Source of the DNA: Syncephalastrum monosporum B8922 | Taxonomy: Eukaryota; Mucoromycota; Mucoromycetes; Mucorales; Syncephalastraceae | Direction of reading: 5' to 3' | Length of the DNA stretch: 64,000 nt | Assembly (NCBI GenBank): GCA_000697355.1 | Contig: JNEN01000923.1 | Coordinates: 62,001-126,000 of the forward strand | In this document: positions 998 through 42,907 of the stretch, piece by piece | How the letters are laid out: every line of letters starts with the position of its first letter | Position numbering within the stretch: position 1 is the stretch's first letter | The notes under the pieces: model-generated | The model's database searches: none | What the model saw: only the letters and a program-made list of their open reading frames with translations | Told to the model about the DNA's origin: nothing | Program-made: the position numbers and the translations under genes

Positions 998-1557
998 TCA
1001 GGCCGATTTTTGCTCCTCCGTCGAGGCTGAGTGTTGACCACCGAGCGCGGCGAAGACGCCACGCAGATCGACGACGCTCGCACGCTTCTTGAGGACACGA
1101 CCATCGCGCACGCCATTGACGTCACCCTCGCGCTTCTTGAGTACACGACCATCACGCACACTGTTAACCTGACTGCGGCGCTTCTCGTTGCTCGGTTTGC
1201 TGTGGATATGGGCTTCGTCCTCAGCGTGTATACCGGGGATAACGAACTTTTGGTGAGAAGTATGGATACGCTGGTTGCCGCCGCCCTTGTTACCCTCACC
1301 AGGGTCGGGCTCGCTCCTACGCACCTTGTCGACACGTTCTTTGGCGCCGCCTTGGTGCTGGGCTCTGGCGCGTCCATGTGAGCTTGCACATGCAGACGAT
1401 GGGTTTCGTTGAGGATGCGGGCCTGCTGGGTTTCGACGGCCTTCTTCAGGTCGGTCTTTAGCTGCTGGCCTTGGACGGGTAAAGCAGGACGAGCGAGGAC
1501 TACTGCGATGAGCGCAAGACATATCACAGAAATGGGCTTGGCTTTTGAAAAGAGCAT
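998..1557 (-). CDS. Small secreted repeat protein with Kex2-like KKR sites; frame change inside
   Basis: The ATG at 1557 opens a good signal peptide (hydrophobic core about residues 8-20, cleavage near VQGQQ) and a charged stretch. The C-terminal half makes sense only in a different frame, ending with TGA at 998-1000. In that frame two copies of VN-S/G-VRDGRVLKKR lie in tandem. The two copies differ almost only at third codon positions, which supports this as the coding frame. The frames can be joined by a 50-nt candidate intron (1335..1286, weak GTGTCG donor, AACAAG acceptor), giving 169 residues, or by a one-base indel. KKR after each repeat suggests Kex2 processing into small peptides. The family is not recognised. 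Residues RR and KRR also occur just before the repeats. Confidence 0.5.
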
Positions 1558-1893
1558 GGCAAAGATAAGAGAGGAGAGGGAGGAGGATGGTATGAGGATG
1601 AAGAGGATGACTATCGAACGGTGGTCGAACATCCGCCTACTTTTATAAGAAACAGGCACATTCATAGTTCTTGCCGCGATGCGTGTAATGTTGTGAAGCC
1701 ACTATATTACAGTATTCTTTATCGTATTCGTAAGAGGACTATGTGGTATGCAATAAAAGAGTGGATAGGTGGATGAATGATAATGAAATTTTCTTTTCTT
1801 TTGAGGAAAAAATCTACATGCAACGTTTCTATTATACAGGAGTCTATTGGGGAGATGGGTAATACGAGAAAAGATCACGACAGACGCTTTTCT
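1558..1893. other. Intergenic between secreted protein gene and MSM1 3' end
   Basis: Contains the TATA box above and AT-rich sequence. Nothing else is recognisable. Confidence 0.5.
1641..1648 (-). promoter_or_regulatory. TATA box of the KKR-repeat secreted protein
   Basis: The minus strand reads TTATAAAA, about 85 bp upstream of the ATG at 1557. Confidence 0.45.
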
Positions 1894-4365
<2,472 letters not shown>

Positions 4366-20819: not shown

Positions 20820-22270
20820 CTAGTAGGCCCGCTTCTCGGGCTCATCAATGCTGTAGGTATCGACCGAGACCTTGTCGTTCTCCGTCTCAGTTGTCATGTT
20901 GGTGTCTGTGACAGTGCGAGCGACCAAAAAGAGCAGTGGGAAAGAAATAAAGACGAGCAGCCAGCTGATCAGACATTCCCATCGAAGCGGGATGTTGACG
21001 GCGTCGATACCAAAGGAGATGGCGGCACCAGCAGACTGCATGGCTTTGTAGTAACCGGCATAGCGAGCGAGAAGAGCGGGATCATTTGACATGGCACCCA
21101 TGACCCAGTAAAGATAGGACTGGTAGAGCGAATCAGCGAAACCATAAAGGAGGTAGAGGACAAACGGACCGCCGAAGCCCGGGGTGGTCCAGTGCTTCGG
21201 GCTATCATAGTCATTGTCAAAGGTCAGCTGGAAAGCGAAACCACCGGCCCAGATGGCCATCAGGATCAGGAACATGATGCCCAGAGCAAGGATACCACGG
21301 TTGCGCCGGCGCATACCCTGGTAATCGAGGAGCAAGCCGATCATAAGCGAGCCCACGATCTGGAAGGCCCAGTACATCAAGTCGTTCAGCGCACGGGCTG
21401 AGGCATCAAAGTAGACGGCGTTGACGCGGAATTGGTAGGCGTAAAACCAGTTGGAGGCGAGGAAAGCCGGCGAGAGTGCAAGGATGCGCCACTCCTTGAC
21501 AATCAGCAGAACACCCTTCAGCTCGGTAGTCCAATGAGTTGCCTTGGGCATCGCAACTCGTGTACCATCGGGGCGAACGACCTTGGAGGGAGGTGCCAGG
21601 AAAATAGAGAAGACGACACCGCACAGCATGATAACGACAAACGCCGTGTAAGTACCAGTGGAGACACCGCCGGCCTCGTTCTCGAGGTTAAGACACAGGG
21701 CAATCAATGAACCAAGGATACCGCCGGTGTTGAAAAGGGCCCAAAAGACGGCGACATATTTGCCCTTGTTCTTTTCTTCGGGATACGACATCATGACTGA
21801 GCCATGAGCTGACCAGAAGCAGCCTGCGCAGCAGCCGAGGATGGCGCCGGCAGCGATAACGAAACCCGAGACTTGCTTGCGGTCGTACACCCAGAAAGCA
21901 GCGGAATAAATAGCGTAGCCAATACTGCCGACCTATCAAATCAAATTTATTTTTTTTTATAGAAATATTTTTCTGGTCAGTTTCCAAAAACACATGTAAC
22001 ATATTTTTGTGTGTAAAGACATACCGTAAGGACTGGCTTGACGCCAACTGTGTTTGTGATGGAACCAGCAAAGAAACCGACGATAGCGAAACAGCCGTAA
22101 AGAGCGCCGTTGGCAGCATCGGTCAAGGCTACATTGGAACTCATGGAACCACCTGCACCAAGACCGCTGAGGGCATTGAACATGCCTGGGCAGCACAAGC
22201 ACACAAAGCCAAGCAGGGCAACTTGTGTTAGTGGCCGATTGAACCGTTCAAAAAACGGGCTGTCGAACAT
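20820..22270 (-). CDS. UNC93-like major facilitator family protein
   Basis: A polytopic membrane protein of 452 residues from two exons (22270..22025, 21932..20820). The N-terminus FFERFNRPLTQVALLGFVCLCCPGMFNALSGLGAGG is the usual start of fungal UNC93/DUF895 proteins. About eleven or twelve hydrophobic segments follow, with a GKYVAVFWALFNTGGILGS loop and a C-terminal MQSAGAAISFGIDAV segment. The cytosolic tail is short and acidic. The family belongs to the MFS fold, but substrates are mostly unknown; animal UNC-93 members act as channel subunits or trafficking factors. The promoter contains an A-rich run just upstream of the ATG. Confidence 0.85.
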
Positions 22271-32634: not shown

Positions 32635-33781
32635 CTACAAGGACAAAAAGAACGCGGCAACAGAGCCTAGAAGAATACAGCAAGTAATCGACAGTTGGAG
32701 GCTAGACGCTGCACTATCGCTTAGTTCGACAACGTTGCCTGTGCTGAGCTGGATGTTCTTGAAATATGAGTAGGTATCGACAGTGGTGGCGTACTTGGTC
32801 GATCCGCCGCCAAAGAATGTGCTGAACATCATGGAAGTCACTGCAACAGCATTGGAGGTTCGGTATTGGAGATTCTGCTGGTTGATCTTGAGAGCGCCGT
32901 CCTGCCAAACCTGGAGGACACCGTCGGATTGCGATGCGTTATTAACCTTGACGTAGATTTCGAGGGTGGTCCACTGGTTGGTCTTGAACTGGATGACGCC
33001 ACGAGAAAAACTGACACCATATTCATCATTACATTGAACGTTGCTATCACTGCAGATGTTGCTATCGGGTATGTATGCATACGCCTCGCCAGCACCTGCA
33101 ATTAAGAGACACAATTTTGCAGACATGCATAAATATACAAAGACAGTAAGCAGCAAATAGAGTGCACATACCGCCTTGGCGCCACATGATTCTGCTGGAG
33201 AAGCAGTTGGATCCATCCGCCTTGTTACCGCCTGAGCAGCCCTTCCCAGGAGGACCTAGAGGGGAAAGAGACAGGGAAAAGAACGCGTAAATAACGAGAC
33301 AAGTACAGTGAATCGGATTAATAAAGTTTATACCTCCAAAGAGACCGGGAAGCTTTCCACCGAGGACCCAGTCAAAGTTGCTTGCGAAGGCAAGGTCATA
33401 TCTGAGGAGCATGCTGTCATAGGAAGCATTGTTGCTATCGGGTGTGGTGTAGAACTCAGTACCACCAGTACTACCCGAGTTACTCTTGGCACCACTGGGT
33501 GCATACGACCCAGCAGCATAGAGCACTTCCATCACTGTATCTGAAGCATTGTTGCTAATAGGGTCGCTCACAAACTTGACATCGTTCTCGCCGTACATGT
33601 AGCTAATGGCCAGGTTCCATTGGTCAGTCAGGTACGATTTCAGGTTGCCTTGGTCATTGGAGCCCATTGGAGCAGTCCAAGTCTCTTTGAGACCCAGCTC
33701 TTGCGCTCGCTCTGATAATTGTTGTCCGTTTACAGCGACAAGACTGGCTCCCAGAATAAGAGCCAGGCGCAGCGTAATCAT
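32635..33781 (-). CDS. PL14-like polysaccharide lyase domain protein, probably GPI-anchored
   Basis: Three exons (33781..33334, 33255..33172, 33095..32635) give 330 residues. The signal peptide is about residues 1-19, ending near VNGQQ. The lyase-type jelly-roll blocks are DWVLGGKLPGLFGG, GCSGG, CFSSRIMWRQGGAGEAYAYIP, SFSRGVIQFKTNQW and FSTFFGGGSTKYATTVDTYSYFKNIQ, matching polysaccharide lyase 14 (glucuronan/alginate lyase-like) proteins of fungi. The last 25 residues are a small-residue site plus hydrophobic tail (CCILLGSVAAFFLSL), suggesting a GPI anchor. The likely substrate is a polyuronide; Mucorales walls contain glucuronans, so an endogenous wall role is possible but inferred. The ATG at 33781 was chosen because the upstream open extension is low-complexity Phe/Ile. 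Confidence 0.75.
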
Positions 33782-34645
33782 TGTGACAAAGAGTGGAGAA
33801 AGGAGAAAGAATGATAGGAAAATGAAAATGAAAATGGAATATGAATATGAACCGCGTTCGGTCGCACTATACAATTGCGTTCAACCGCGCCAATAATAAT
33901 AGTAGCTTCCTCTTATTTTATTTTTTTTGGTCTTACTTTCTGCTGAGCCATTGCAACGCCACATCGGCAAGCTTAGCCGATAGCCTCCATCACAGCACTT
34001 TCACTTCATTCTGACTGACGTTCTTTGTTTCGGGCGTGGTCTACCAATTCCCTCCCCCCTCCTTTTTTTTATCTTCAACTGCAATCTATTTCTTCGCTTT
34101 AATCTTAGAGGCGTGTGTTACCAGAATATAGGAATAAATTTGCATTGGTCATGAGCTCCCCTTTTTCTGCTATTTTTGTTTTCAAAAACAAAAACCAGAA
34201 AAGAGCATCCAACGCACTCCTTCTTATCTTGAAGCAAGAGGAGTACGCATCGGTGTGCTTTTCGAGGCCATCGGCGAAAGATTGATTACTTTCTTCACGG
34301 TGTGTCTATGCTAGCGTTTGTTTCGCGACCGCTGTATCGTTTGCACCTTGACTCTTGTAACATCACCTATGCATCGAACTATCCTTATTTATAGACACCA
34401 GCAGTTTTTTTTATAAGATAAAAAACAAAAACAAAAACAAAAGTATGATCTAATAGTATAAATTTAATGCGAAAAGGCGGTTATCAAGATTAGGTGTAAA
34501 AGGTACAGTTTCTATTACCAACCATTAATAGAAAGTGAAAAAAAAGTAGTCGTAGAATTACAAGAAAAATGAACAAAATAGTCTGATACGTGTGTGTGTG
34601 GAGCGTGTGTAATATGGACAGCCTGTATAACGCTAAGGATTTTTT
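33782..34645. other. Promoter of the PL14-like gene and 3' flank of the bZIP gene
   Basis: CT- and A-rich tracts. No gene is recognised in 860 bp. Confidence 0.5.
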
Positions 34646-37147: not shown

Positions 37148-38499
37148 ATGAAGGTGAACGGCTTCATTGGACTCCTAGCCGCTGTGGCGTTAGTTAATGC
37201 CTCGCCCTGCGCGAGTGAGTCCACTCATTCTAGCAGCAATAGCAGCAACAACGGCAATTGTGCTGCTGCCTATGGTCAATGCGGCGGTAAGTTATTGATA
37301 CATTAGGTGATCTTTCTTCTTTTAGACTTTGGCTTACCATTGGCGTTCAATTACTTATAATCAACTATGTTACAGGCAAGACATGGACTGGAGCAACCTG
37401 CTGCGTATCTGGATACACGTGTGTAACGCGAGACGATAACGTATGGTATTCCCAATGTATTCCTAATGGTACGGTGCGAAAAAGTCCTGATATAAACGTC
37501 TCCCTAAATAACACGCTGATCTTGTCATAACAGCGGAAGCGGCTACGTTGTCCAATACGGCTGCTTCTTCCAAGACTGCTTCATCCTCGATGTCCAAGTC
37601 ATCGAGCATCGAAAGCACGACCATGACCGCAAAACACAAGACCACCGCGACAGATGCTTCTTCCAGCAAGGCAGCAACGACTTCTTCAGTGAAGACTTCT
37701 GTGAAAGCTGCCTCCAAGACGGCTACCGAAGCCACTACCACCTCTTCTTCGTCTTCGTCAGCCAAAGCATCTTCGACCTCGTCGTCTTCTTCATCGTCAC
37801 CGGATTACAATGCCGTCTCCGGTGGTGCCTCGGGCGATGGTACGACGACCCGCTACTGGGATTGTTGCAAAGCTTCCTGCGGTTGGCCGGGCAAGGCTTC
37901 GGTTTCTTCGCCTGTAGGTTCGTGCAAGGCGGATGGCGTTACTCTTGTAGATGTCAATGAACAGGTACATCCTGCATTTCGTGCTGTCCACACAGAACTA
38001 ATAGTAGATTATGCAGAGTGGCTGTAACGGCGGTGGCGCCTACATGTGCAATGATAACCAACCTTGGGCGGTAACAGATGATCTCGCCTATGGTTTTGCG
38101 GCCGCTTCGATCGCTGGTTCTGACGAAGCTGGTTGGTGCTGTGGCTGCTACGAGCTTACCTTTACCTCGACCGCTATCCAAGGCAAGAAGATGGTTGTTC
38201 AAGTGACCAACACCGGTGGTGATCTTGGCTCGAATCACTTTGATCTTCAGCTTCCTGGTGGCGGTGTGGGCATATTCAACGGTTGCCAATCACAGTGGAA
38301 TGCTCCGAGCAACGGCTGGGGCGAGCGTTACGGTGGTGTAAGTGCTGAATCTGCGTGCAGCGACCTGCCCAATGAGCTTCAGGCTGGATGCAAGTTCCGG
38401 TTTGAATGGTTTAAGAATGCTGATAACCCGAGCGTCACTTTCAAAGAAGTTACTTGTCCCTCTACCTTGACTGCCAAGACTGGCTGTAAGAGAAACTAA
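37148..38499 (+). CDS. Secreted GH45 endoglucanase with N-terminal CBM1
   Basis: Cleaves beta-1,4-glucan (cellulose) outside the cell. Four exons (37148..37286, 37376..37468, 37534..37964, 38017..38499) give 381 residues. The order is: signal peptide (about 1-19), a fungal cellulose-binding CBM1 ([10 protein letters not shown], then [13 protein letters not shown] and WYSQC), a long Ser/Thr/Ala/Lys linker, and the GH45 barrel. The barrel starts [17 protein letters not shown], with the catalytic aspartate in YWDC, and contains the second catalytic aspartate in [15 protein letters not shown]. The CBM1-linker-GH45 order is that of the characterised Rhizopus and Mucor endoglucanases (RCE1, MCE1). 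All key residues are present, so it should be active. Confidence 0.93.
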
Positions 38500-38693
38500 T
38501 AGAAAGTATATGTTCAATGGTTGATCTATTATCAGCTATGTACACATATAAACACATCATTTGTTATCAATGATAATGGCAAGGGCGAATCGCATGTCAT
38601 ATGTACAATTTGTGTTTGTTTCCATCAAATTCAAATTTACAAGAGCACACTAAAATAGTCGAACTCTGTGGCGATATCGGCGCCGTTAAAGCC

Positions 38694-38736
38694 TTAATGG
38701 TCGTGGTGACCATGATGATGATGGTCATCATCATCG

Positions 38737-38774
<38 letters not shown>

Positions 38775-38904
38775 GTCGTCGTCGTCGTCGTTGCGCTTGA
38801 CGCGGCGCCAGTCGTGGTCATGGTCGTCATCGTCATCATCATCATCATCATCATCATCGTCGTCGTCATTGCGCTTGACGCGGCGCCAGTCGTGGTCATG
38901 GTCG

Positions 38905-38966
<62 letters not shown>

Positions 38967-39015
38967 GTCGTCGTCGTCGTTGCGCTTGACGCGGCGCCAG
39001 TCGTGGTCATGGTCG

Positions 39016-39047
<32 letters not shown>

Positions 39048-40223
39048 GTCGTCGTCGTCGTCATCATTGCGCTTGACGCGGCGCCAGTCGTGGTCATGGT
39101 CGTCGTCGTCGTCATCATCATCGTCATCATCATCATCATCATCGTCGTCGTCATCATTGCGCTTGACGCGGCGCCAGTCGTGGTCATGGTCGTCGTCGTC
39201 GTCATCATCATCGTCATCATCATCATCATCATCGTCGTCGTCATCATTGCGCTTGACGCGGCGCCAGTCGTGGTCATGGTCGTCGTCGTCGTCATCATCA
39301 TCGTCATCATCATCATCATCATCGTCGTCGTCATCATTGCGCTTGACGCGGCGCCAGTCGTGGTCATGGTCGTCGTCGTCGTCATCATCATCGTCATCAT
39401 CATCATCATCATCGTCGTCGTCATCATTGCGCTTGACGCGGCGCCAGTCGTGGTCATGGTCGTCGTCGTCGTCATCATCATCGTCATCATCATCATCATC
39501 ATCGTCGTCGTCATCATTGCGCTTGACGCGGCGCCAGTCGTGGTCATGGTCGTCGTCGTCGTCATCATCATCGTCATCATCATCATCATCGTCGTCGTCG
39601 TCATTGCGCTTGACACGGCGCCAGTTGCCATCATCATCATCATCGCCATCATCATCGTCGCCGTTATCATCATCACGCTTGACGCGGCGCCAGTTGTCAT
39701 CATCATCGTCATCGCCACGCTTTACTTGACCGTAGTGAACGGCGTTGACATTGAAATCATTGTCATCTCCATTATCGTCGCCACCGTTGTCATCGCCACC
39801 ATCATCGCCGTTGTCATCTCGGCGTTGTACGTGACCATGACCGTGGCCTCCATGATAGCCTCCGTGGTGGCCTCCATGATAGCCTCCGTGGTGACCTCCG
39901 TGATAGCCCCCGTGGTGGCCGTCGTCGTCGTGGCCTCCGTGATAACCTCCATGGTGACCATCGTCATAGTCATCATCATGATGCTGACGCTTTACGAGAC
40001 TGTAGCCGCCGTGACCGTGGTGGTAGCCGCCGTGGTGACCGTGGTGATAGCCGCCGTGGTGACCGTGGTGACCGTGGTGATAGCCGCCATGGTGATAGCC
40101 TCCATGACCATGACCTTGGTAACGATCGGAGACAGCCGTGGGTGATGCAGTGTTCACGGGAGCAGCGAGGGCCGCAGCAGCGACCATACCCAGGGTGAGA
40201 ATAGTGATGCCAGAAAGCTTCAT
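38694..40223 (-). CDS. Secreted Asp-rich, His-rich tandem-repeat precursor with Kex2-type sites
   Basis: An intron-free gene of 509 residues with a signal peptide (about 1-20, ending ALAAP). Residues of about 35-130 are His/Gly/Tyr repeats (GGYHHG, GGYHGGHH) that should bind metal ions. After an Asp/Asn/Gly spacer comes a tandem array. Two units end NWRRVKR and nine end HDHDWRRVKR, each followed by N and a run of mostly 14-27 aspartates; the array closes with HHHHGHHDH. Dibasic sites (SLVKR, HVQRR, QVKR and eleven RRVKR) number fourteen, so Kex2-type cleavage in the secretory pathway could release polyaspartyl peptides. A minus-strand TATA box lies 62 bp upstream of the ATG. I recognise no family. 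The precursor layout resembles fungal Kex2-processed repeat proteins, but polyaspartate units are unusual. A role in Ca or heavy-metal binding is inference. Confidence 0.8.
38787..39720 (-). repeat. Tandem coding repeat array, partly exact 90-bp units
   Basis: From 39071 to 39520 five consecutive 90-bp units are identical as far as I can read. Flanking units differ mainly in the number of GAT/GAC codons between WRRVKR blocks. The GAT/GAC order inside the runs is preserved between units, so duplication is recent or homogenised. Confidence 0.9.
40085..40092 (-). other. Start of His/Gly repeat head (coding)
   Basis: Marks the region (about 39830-40120) where the CAC/CAT-GGC/GGT repeats encode the GGYHHG head of the Asp-rich precursor. 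The repeat is imperfect, unlike the exact array downstream. Confidence 0.4.
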
Positions 40224-40626
40224 ACTTATTTATGATAGCAGTGAAGATGAAGTAAAGATCACATTCCAGCGTGATACGAGACGGTATTTATACCAAAATA
40301 TATAACCCTTGCAAACTCGTGGGTTTATAAGCAACCAGCATCATGCTAAATAGAGCAATGTTCTATTCGTTCGAACCCATGACCGTTATGGATGGCGTAT
40401 TTGTAAGCTCAATGCAGTCAAAATTTTTTTTATTTTCTAAAACAAAAGCCAAATGATGGACTGTAATGCATGCGAGGTAATTCCCCCGGACCCGTAATTT
40501 GCAAATGGTTACACGCAGAATAAAGTTTGTCTGTGTAACATGAAGCAGTGGTAAAAAGCATGTTTACCGGGTGTGCCGCTCAATTGTTGTTTCCCCTTTC
40601 CCTCCTTTTTTTCTCAGCATACCTCG
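40224..40626. other. Divergent promoter region, Asp-rich precursor / GH47
   Basis: About 400 bp shared between two divergent genes. Besides the TATA box no element is recognised. Confidence 0.5.
40285..40292 (-). promoter_or_regulatory. TATA box of the Asp-rich precursor gene
   Basis: The minus strand reads TATAAATA, 62 bp before the ATG at 40223. It sits inside a short palindrome GGTATTTATACC. Confidence 0.55.
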
Positions 40627-42907
40627 ATGCTACAAGCTTCCAAGAAGCTGCCTTACCGATGGAGACTCGTTATGCTTGGTGGAGTAGTTATGCTTCTGTT
40701 GTTTCAGGCGCGCATAATTATACAGCGTGACGTCCCTAACGACATAAGCATGATCACGGATGAGAGGAGACCAAAGCCCTACATTTCGACGGAAAAAGCA
40801 ACTGACAGTGATGAGGCAACCATGAGAGGATCTCTTCATCATGATGGTTTTCATGCGTTTCGATCCAGGTTGCCACGTATCCAATATAACTTCAGCGGGT
40901 CACCAACAGCAGTCGAGCTCGAGCGCCGTGGATCGATCAAGGCTGCCTTTCAACATGCATGGAGTGATGGATACAGTAAGGAGAAAGGGTGACCTCTGTG
41001 TACTATAGAGCTGATCCACACAAGTTACGTATGCGCTTGGGCATGACGAACTGCAGCCCATCTCGAAAAAGAGCAAGGATACTTTTGGAGGATGGGGCGC
41101 GACGCTAGTAGATGGGCTCAGCACGTTGTTGACAATGGAATTGCATGATGAATTCTCGGCCGCTTTACCAGAATTAGCAAAAATCAATTTTACAGTGAAT
41201 GAGCCCATCAGCGTTTTTGAGTCCACGATCCGCTATCTCGGAGGGTTGCTTAGCGCGTACGAGTTGACAGACGCGCAGCATCCCATTTTGCTTCAGAAGG
41301 CGGAGGAGTTGGGCCAGATGCTTTTACCCGCTTTTAATACTCCGTCTGGCTTGCCGCCAACGCAATGGAACCCTGTAAAGTAGGTGTGAAATACAACAAG
41401 AGTGCATCCACCATGAGAAAAAAAACAACTTGCTGAGGATGGAAGACTGACGTACAGTCTGCTTTTATTCTTGTAGAGGAACAACACCGGCTAATCGGAC
41501 TTTGATTGCCGAAGTAGGCACCCTGCAGCTGGAGTTGTTCACACTGTCGCTTCACACAGGAGATACGATATATGCCGAAAAGGTACGTCATTTGGCTATC
41601 TACTGGCCGTCATGTTTTTGATAGTAATCCTCCTTAGGCCCAAGCTATCACCGATACTCTTGATGATATGGGTTATGAGCATGGCATGCATATACCCGGC
41701 TTATACCCGACCGGCATTGATACCAATCAAGGGCGCTTCATGGACGCGACGTGTCGCGTCGGTGCAATGGGAGACAGTATCTACGAGGTATGGTAATATC
41801 TTGGATTATGTTGATGGGAAGCGAGTATACTCAAGCAGAAACCAATTTAGTACTTCCTAAAGGAATATATTTTGACAGATGGCCTTCCACAATTTGGTCG
41901 ATTATGTAAGTATTGATTATAACGTGTGTTATTTGGCAACCAGGAGCTCACATGCACGTTGGTAGACCTCCAGTCTGTGGACAGTATCAAACAGCACATG
42001 CTACAGCAGCTGCCTGGAACGGATCTCCTCTTTCTGCCGCCGTTTGACACTAGGAACAGACGCGCATCCAATGTGATGGACCACTTGACATGCTTTGCGC
42101 CCGGAATGTTTGCGATCGGTTCAAGGCTATTTGACAGACCAGAAGACATGCAGGTCGCGCAAGGGCTTTTGGAGATGTGTGTTTACATGTACCGGAGCTC
42201 GGAGACGGGACTGTGTCCCGAGACTTGGACTGTGACTGATGCAGAACCTTACAACCCGCTCACATATGGCATGTCGCGGAGCCAACTTTCACAGGCCCGT
42301 GACTGGTGGTACGGCCTCACCACAACGGTTGCGCCTACTCGAACCGGTCCACAGCCACCGCCTCTTAAGCCAAGGCCCAATGGTCTACAAGCGGCCGACA
42401 AGCGGTACATGCTGCGACCAGGTAATGAGACATGCACAAAGAGGAGCTCTGTGTATTGACATATGACTGGGGTGCAATAGAAACTCTGGAGAGTATCTTT
42501 ATCCTTTACCGTATGACGGGTGATAGAAAATATCAGGTATGATGGCCTGATAGTGCCTGCGATACATCTTGTCCTTACACGGGGCATAGGAATACGGTTG
42601 GGAGATATTTGAGGCGCTAGAAAAATGGTGCAAGACAGATGTGGCCTATGCCGCCCTTCGAAACGTCGAAAAGGCACCCACAAACAACGAGGATCGAGAA
42701 AGAAATCAGATGGACTCCATGGAAAGGTAAAGAGAAGGGATTTGGAAGCACGCTACGTATGACTCATACATTGCATGTAGCTTCCTGTATGCTGAGACAC
42801 TCAAGTATCTCTACCTACTTTTCAGTCCACCCGACGTGATTTCACTCGATGAATTTGTCCTCAATACCGAAGCCCACCCGTTTAGACGACGTACGTGGGT
42901 ATCCTAG
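40627..42907 (+). CDS. Class I alpha-1,2-mannosidase, GH47
   Basis: Trims mannose from N-glycans in the ER or Golgi. Nine exons (40627..40975, 41025..41379, 41477..41582, 41638..41787, 41851..41905, 41966..42421, 42481..42536, 42590..42726, 42781..42907) give 596 residues. It is a type II membrane protein: short basic N-terminus, hydrophobic segment [18 protein letters not shown], Ser-rich stem, then the GH47 barrel. Family blocks include [75 protein letters not shown] and [16 protein letters not shown]. The cysteine pair region and the C-terminal [11 protein letters not shown] are present. Whether it is ER mannosidase I or a Golgi form cannot be told by eye. Exon 6 uses the AG at 41964-41965, because nearer AGs break the frame. 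Confidence 0.92.

Follow-up and report, generated by a model that had tools for sequence, protein, structure and literature searches.

A polyaspartate repeat precursor with kexin-type sites predicted in the genome of Syncephalastrum monosporum

The window, i.e., the whole 64,000-nucleotide stretch of DNA that was analyzed (Syncephalastrum monosporum B8922, contig JNEN01000923.1, positions 62,001 to 126,000), carries an uninterrupted open reading frame of 509 codons at positions 38694-40223 of its minus strand. The encoded protein of 509 amino acids, called here the precursor, has a signal-peptide-like N-terminus, a head and an array of Asp-rich units. The features of the locus, in coordinates of the window, are as follows.

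40285..40292, minus strand: TATAAATA, 69 bases 5' of the precursor ATG (read from the sequence)
38694..40223, minus strand: gene of the 509-amino acid precursor, a single open frame from ATG to TAA (frame list and translation)
40161..40223, minus strand: signal-peptide-like N-terminus, residues 1-21, MKLSGITILTLGMVAAAALA/AP, with the slash at the predicted cut (hydropathy)
39717..40160, minus strand: head, residues 22-169, rich in His/Gly/Tyr and then in Asn/Asp/Gly, with the three dibasic sites VKR, QRR and VKR
39675..39716, minus strand: unit 1, GDDDDDDNWRRVKR (translation)
39606..39674, minus strand: unit 2, DDDNGDDDDGDDDDDGNWRRVKR (translation)
38793..39605, minus strand: units 3-11, nine units of the form N-D(15-26)-HDHDWRRVKR (translation)
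39069..39518, minus strand: five DNA-identical units of 90 bp, units 4-8 of the array (repeat comparison)
38697..38792, minus strand: unit 12, N-D22-HHHHGHHDH, at the C-terminus with no dibasic site after it (translation)

The precursor includes 251 Asp, 61 His and 50 Gly residues and no Glu or Cys; Asp and His together account for about 60% of the protein. The N-terminus reaches a 12-residue mean hydropathy of 2.34 and ends in ALA/AP, where the signal-peptide cut was placed following the -3,-1 rule. The Asp array spans residues 170-509, has 12 units and lacks Tyr. The first two units are short or mixed; unit 1 has the layout GD6NWRRVKR, its first residues being GDDDDDD, and the ten units that start with N-D are 26-37 amino acids long. 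The hexapeptide WRRVKR closes 11 of the 12 units, as HDHDWRRVKR in nine and as NWRRVKR in two. A preliminary description made from the sequence had given the signal-peptide-like start, the His/Gly/Tyr head, about a dozen Asp runs and these nine and two unit ends, and the translation bore out its counts. It had also placed a Kex2 site after every repeat, which is correct for 11 units and fails for unit 12, where HHHHGHHDH is followed by the stop codon.

Downstream of the precursor gene, a plus-strand frame matching glycoside hydrolase family 45 (GH45) ends at position 38499, 194 bases from the precursor stop, and therefore the two genes converge. The GH45 endoglucanase matches cover 37512-38499 of the plus strand in two frames (exons), and their closest structures are 5h4u (E 5.7e-74) and 1hd5. 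On the opposite flank, the plus strand has a frame at 40555-40989 with a membrane-anchor-like stretch and no Pfam match, and a GH47 match is located at 41923-42456. These elements, which we infer to belong to a single gene, suggest a divergent gene upstream of the precursor. Other neighbors in the window matched the Pfam families PL14, bZIP, TauD-like, epimerase, MFS/UNC-93, RasGEF, patatin, C2H2, HEAT, RAB3GAP2, helicase and FHA, and further frames had no match. No gene cluster around the precursor is claimed: the scanned neighbors do not form a coherent group, and the Pfam scan, which covered 30 exon-sized frames of the window, recognized none of them as a metal transporter or as another gene that handles metals. 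Matches to polysaccharide lyase family 14 were found in two overlapping frames at 32638-33880 of the minus strand. The MFS gene (20823-21932, minus strand) had its top matches, beyond itself, in Mucor fragilis, Radiomyces, Parasitella, Backusella, Phycomyces and others, which stood with 74-79% identity at the head of 190 matches (the best 120 listed) and place the fungus in Mucorales.

The length of the open reading frame proves little at this locus because runs of GAT and GAC keep several frames open. Opposite the gene, the plus strand includes a mirror frame of 514 amino acids (38601-40145) in which Met, Ile and Val form the runs, together with a frame at 38722-39726 that is open from stop to stop and translates into runs of Ser; a 371-amino acid frame on the minus strand is likewise open across the GAT/GAC repeats. 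The 514-amino acid plus frame and the Ser-run frame are by-products of the GAY repeats. GAT/GAC changes are synonymous in the Ser-run plus frame too, so the array alone cannot decide the strand. The head was compared with itself. All 15 pairs of similar, non-identical windows with at least 20 of 24 bases matching were in frame (offset a multiple of three), with 31 of 57 mismatches at the third codon position of the minus frame. Third-position mismatches were 18 of 25 at a threshold of 21/24 (nine pairs) and 7 of 10 at 22/24 (five pairs); at the looser 18/24, 40 of 40 pairs were in frame and 110 of 228 mismatches fell at the third position. These figures are counts with no p-value, because the windows overlap in sequence. 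A third-position count of 85 out of 85 was set aside as circular, the stretches having been picked for encoding identical protein. The hydrophobic start with ALA/AP, TATAAATA, an A at position -3 and the in-frame head windows favor the minus frame. TATA-like sites are also found at -81 and -106 from the precursor ATG.

The precursor has 25 dibasic pairs, two (RR and KR) in each spacer and three in the head (KR at residues 78-79, RR at 134-135 and KR at 168-169). Beyond residue 21, 50 of the 51 Lys and Arg residues sit in dibasic pairs; 2000 composition shuffles of the precursor placed 9.9 there on average and never more than 22. None of the 11 spacers of the array departs from WRRVKR, and their DNA shows two base differences, both synonymous. 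Across the nine copies of HDHDWRRVKRN there is a single synonymous difference, common to two of them. The sequence RVKR is an optimal furin-type site. Cutting at KR only would yield a 79-residue start, a second head piece of 90 residues and the 12 array units, which start with GD, DD or ND after the predicted cuts.

Searches of the fungus's own genome covered an assembly of 27,528,251 bases in 198 contigs. Kexin-like P domains were detected at two loci, on contigs C156 and C166, with three matches. The P-domain stretch on C166 holds an internal stop, which is probably part of an intron. Among solved structures, those of yeast kexin match the C156 exon best (E 5.7e-51), with furin after them, and both loci include the sequence HGGTSAAAP, which we take to be the kexin-type serine-site motif. 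S10 carboxypeptidases gave 24 fragment matches, which may include a Kex1. The proposal in the preliminary description of a secreted-type, kexin-cut precursor is supported by the clustering of basic residues and by the kexin-like loci, and judging from the sequence we regard it as very probable that the precursor is secreted and cut by kexin.

The kexin-like loci on C156 and C166 are two separate loci within one genome. One lipase exon had as best PDB matches 6qpp and 6qpr, followed by 4tgl, 1tgl, 5tgl and 3tgl, all presumably Rhizomucor miehei lipase, ahead of 1lgy, presumably from Rhizopus; the exon is far from identical to them.

The search for relatives gave little. The whole precursor had no match at E <= 0.001 among 7999 candidates scored (those sharing the most words with it), no Pfam family matched it at E <= 1, and tblastn of the precursor against plasmids gave no match. 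A search that left out most of the array, as suggested in the preliminary description, was carried out with residues 1-206 and returned six proteins at E <= 10 among 8000 scored. A single match fell below 0.001, P0002, with an E value of 3.7e-4 over 14% of the query. The match to P0002 was judged to reflect low-complexity His/Gly/Tyr similarity. A second array was sought in the fungus's own genome, where the precursor retrieved itself alone (one match from three candidates). Because no homologue of the precursor was found, conservation of the design cannot be shown.

Pattern searches of the same genome pointed to the same gene. The WRRVKR pattern had 13 matches, 11 in the gene and two outside it, and the reversed control had two. 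Both outside matches were rejected: the one on C115 is a lone WRRVKR in a frame with no Asp array, and the letters of the one on C152 give W-R-S. The KRNDDDD pattern had 12 matches (control, one), ten in the gene and two outside it, the latter in a 758-amino acid frame and in a 22-amino acid open stretch, neither of which is an array. A pattern of R or S followed by D8 had five matches versus 17 for its control, and none of the five lies in a dibasic array. Long Asp tracts are present in other proteins of the genome without dibasic arrays, so growth of Asp tracts in this genome seems common.

One of the five R-or-S plus D8 matches belongs to a secreted-type protein on contig C167 (131500-136000, local positions 1521-2627, minus strand). 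It has a MKFLALCASFLLATPLVLA start and several Asp runs, one of them directly after KR, and no dibasic array. Its coding sequence consists of two same-frame stretches split by a single stop codon, possibly within an intron, and neither stretch, scanned separately, had a Pfam match over the cut-off.

At the DNA level the 12 units of the array comprise eight distinct sequences, and five units are identical, a number that depends on the assembly. The five identical 90-bp units, which agree with a 90-bp tandem array detected separately, are the product of recent tandem duplication, and the constancy of the spacers may be due in part to this duplication. The Asp runs are blocks of GAT and GAC that encode 15 to 26 Asp in otherwise similar units. 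These features are what the main null explanation would produce. It states that the precursor is a disordered, acidic secreted protein in which runs of GAY became longer by slippage, and that its Asp peptides, cut or intact, have no specific function. The variable run lengths, the identical DNA copies and the other Asp tracts of the genome, one of them in the secreted-type protein on C167, are consistent with it. The confinement of basic residues to dibasic sites (50 of 51) and the retention of all 11 spacers and the nine HDHD caps count against it, as does the abundance of His in the head, a region not built from GAY runs. We consider this explanation unlikely. Loose run lengths are also as expected if the peptides need charge density rather than an exact fold.

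The preliminary description knew of no named fungal family of this design. That statement did not hold: the design is that of the KEX2-processed repeat proteins (KEPs), a published class (Le Marquer 2019, PMC6339444; Umemura 2020, PMC7329392). The definition of Umemura asks for a signal peptide (SignalP 4.1) and for three or more tandem repeats, each of 8 amino acids or more, bounded by KR, KK, RK or RR; none of the separated sequences may exceed 100 amino acids (PMC7329392). Cutting the precursor at KR gives 12 array units of 14-37 amino acids, as counted directly on the translation; if RR is also cut and the basic ends are trimmed, the cores are 9-32 amino acids long and are parted by VKR tripeptides. 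The longest piece has 58 amino acids when all dibasic sites are cut and 90 when only KR is cut, below the limit in both cases. A signal peptide is likely, judging from the hydrophobic N-terminus with ALA/AP. KEPs are present in 38 of 39 Mucoromycota strains, with a total of 357 (Table 1, PMC7329392), and the peptides of Mucoromycota KEPs are reported to be longer (PMC6339444), which fits the 26-37 amino acids of the ten N-D units. Orphans are frequent in the class, as 2560 of 7878 KEPs stand alone (PMC7329392).

A polyaspartate KEP was not found described. "Multiple D's" is recorded for several KEP types in PMC7329392, the main text of which does not include "aspart" or "DDDD" and the supplementary tables of which may list a relative. 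The main text of PMC6339444 has "aspart" in its list of abbreviations and nowhere else, and the term was not met in PMC8786786, where Geosiphon GpRIC proteins with KR motifs are named. In the parts of the KEP literature examined, the architecture is known and a polyaspartate payload is not found described.

What would such peptides do? The following pathway is read from the sequence. The precursor would enter the endoplasmic reticulum by means of its signal peptide. Kexin in the late Golgi would then cut at the three head sites and, within each WRRVKR, behind KR and perhaps behind RR as well, and a Kex1-type carboxypeptidase would trim the basic ends. The pieces secreted from the head would be three, of which two are His-rich and the other is rich in Asn and Asp. 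The array would release Asp peptides that end in NW or HDHDW, two of them short and nine long, together with an Asp22 peptide that has a His-rich tail. The polyaspartate chain is expected to be disordered. Tandem repetition would raise the dose of peptide per transcript. The most likely role of the peptides would be that of an inexpensive ligand, made in bulk, by which Zn, Cu or Ca ions are bound, buffered or scavenged at the hyphal wall.

The ion binding proposed in the preliminary description is plausible as chemistry. We favor extracellular binding of Zn, Cu or Ca, given that binding of Zn and Cu has been measured for short Asp peptides, that GD6 opens unit 1, and that the peptides of the precursor add His. 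The His residues are those of the HDHDW tips, the HHHHGHHDH tail and the His-rich head. The known short peptides are the ovine SAAP2 (GDDDDDD, or GD6), SAAP3 (D7) and SAAP6 (GAD5), for which the source reports micromolar affinity for Zn and stronger binding of Cu (PMC8267837). That affinity for Zn is modest and counts against a metal role. If the precursor is secreted and kexin-cut, we judge that the chances are slightly better than even that cation binding is its role. We give an even chance to the reading as a whole, in which the precursor is a KEP and its polyanionic and His-rich products bind or buffer metal ions outside the cell. A more specific version is tentative and, in our judgment, less likely than not: the kexin route of peptide hormones would be used, rather than for signaling, to mass-produce polyaspartate, a secreted and gene-encoded polyanion of defined lengths (Asp15-26 with an HDHDW tip), as part of a two-part metal or mineral buffer that acts together with the His-rich peptides at the hyphal wall.

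The main alternative role is control of minerals. In the manner of the acidic shell matrix proteins of animals, the Asp peptides would act on crystals of calcium oxalate or carbonate at the surface of walls, sporangia or spores, by nucleating, shaping or inhibiting them. The wall mineralization suggested in the preliminary description received no direct support from the analysis. Calcium oxalate may occur on the sporangial walls of Mucorales, and near-homopolymeric Asp with no Glu resembles mineral-matrix proteins such as aspein. The HDHDW caps and the His-rich head, however, point to transition metals at least equally, and we hold mineral control to be unlikely. Another alternative is that the products are Zn-dependent anionic antimicrobial peptides directed at competing microbes, like the ovine SAAPs. 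The start of unit 1 is identical to SAAP2, and Zn strongly raises SAAP activity on Mannheimia haemolytica. The same source reports that inhibition of seven other microbes could not be measured at concentrations of up to 256 ug/mL, whether Zn or Cu was present or not (PMC8267837). A short Asp run also easily arises by chance in an Asp-rich protein, and we regard an antimicrobial role as very improbable. Finally, the precursor could give rise to modified cyclic RiPPs like the dikaritins (ustiloxin), the modified residue being Trp or His within HDHDW. Dikaritin precursors have the same layout of a signal peptide and repeated cores between kexin sites, and three of the seven KEP types with DUF3328 neighbors depart from the Tyr rule, having di-His or Trp instead (PMC7329392); the array units also have Trp and His. 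Against this, the array has no Tyr and none of the 357 Mucoromycota KEPs lies beside DUF3328 (Table 1, PMC7329392). UstYa/DUF3328 had no match in the fungus's own genome, but none in the control genomes either, and a gene may have been missed. We see next to no chance for this alternative.

Mass production of polyaspartate as a buffer, if true, would represent a bulk-chemistry class of KEPs and a fungal parallel of the Asp-rich, mineral- and metal-binding peptides of animals. If the reading of the precursor as a KEP releasing metal-binding peptides is right, kexin processing would cover bulk polyelectrolytes in addition to pheromones and toxins, and polyaspartate of set length could be obtained from a gene. 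The one-sided chemistry of the payload makes the cation-binding role directly testable with synthetic peptides.

Several known systems share part of this design. The SAAPs are short Asp peptides that bind Zn and Cu, one of them matching the start of unit 1. They differ in having seven residues and in coming from ovine lung surfactant; we know of no kexin array from which they derive, and common descent with the precursor is not claimed. The fungal zincophores Pra1 and Aspf2 are secreted zinc-binding proteins that are kept whole; no conserved domain was recognized in the precursor by the Pfam search at E <= 1, and the analogy is functional only. Aspein and other Asp-rich shell matrix proteins of animals are secreted and have long Asp runs, and to our knowledge they are not cut by kexin into peptides. 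The ascomycete alpha-pheromone precursors are also secreted and processed by kexin into tandem peptides (PMC6339444, PMC9769878); KEPs of Coprinopsis have been produced in Pichia pastoris (PMC9769878). Unlike the pheromone precursors, the precursor has the X-Ala/X-Pro leader of Ste13 at none of its 12 array units. The missing Tyr-bearing cores set the array apart from dikaritin and ustiloxin precursors as well, a difference that carries little weight given the DUF3328 types without Tyr. The precursor is closest to the KEPs: like them, it has an N-terminus of the signal type, is divided by dibasic sites into many similar units and is an orphan in sequence. It is unlike those found described in that its cores are near-pure Asp with His/Trp caps.
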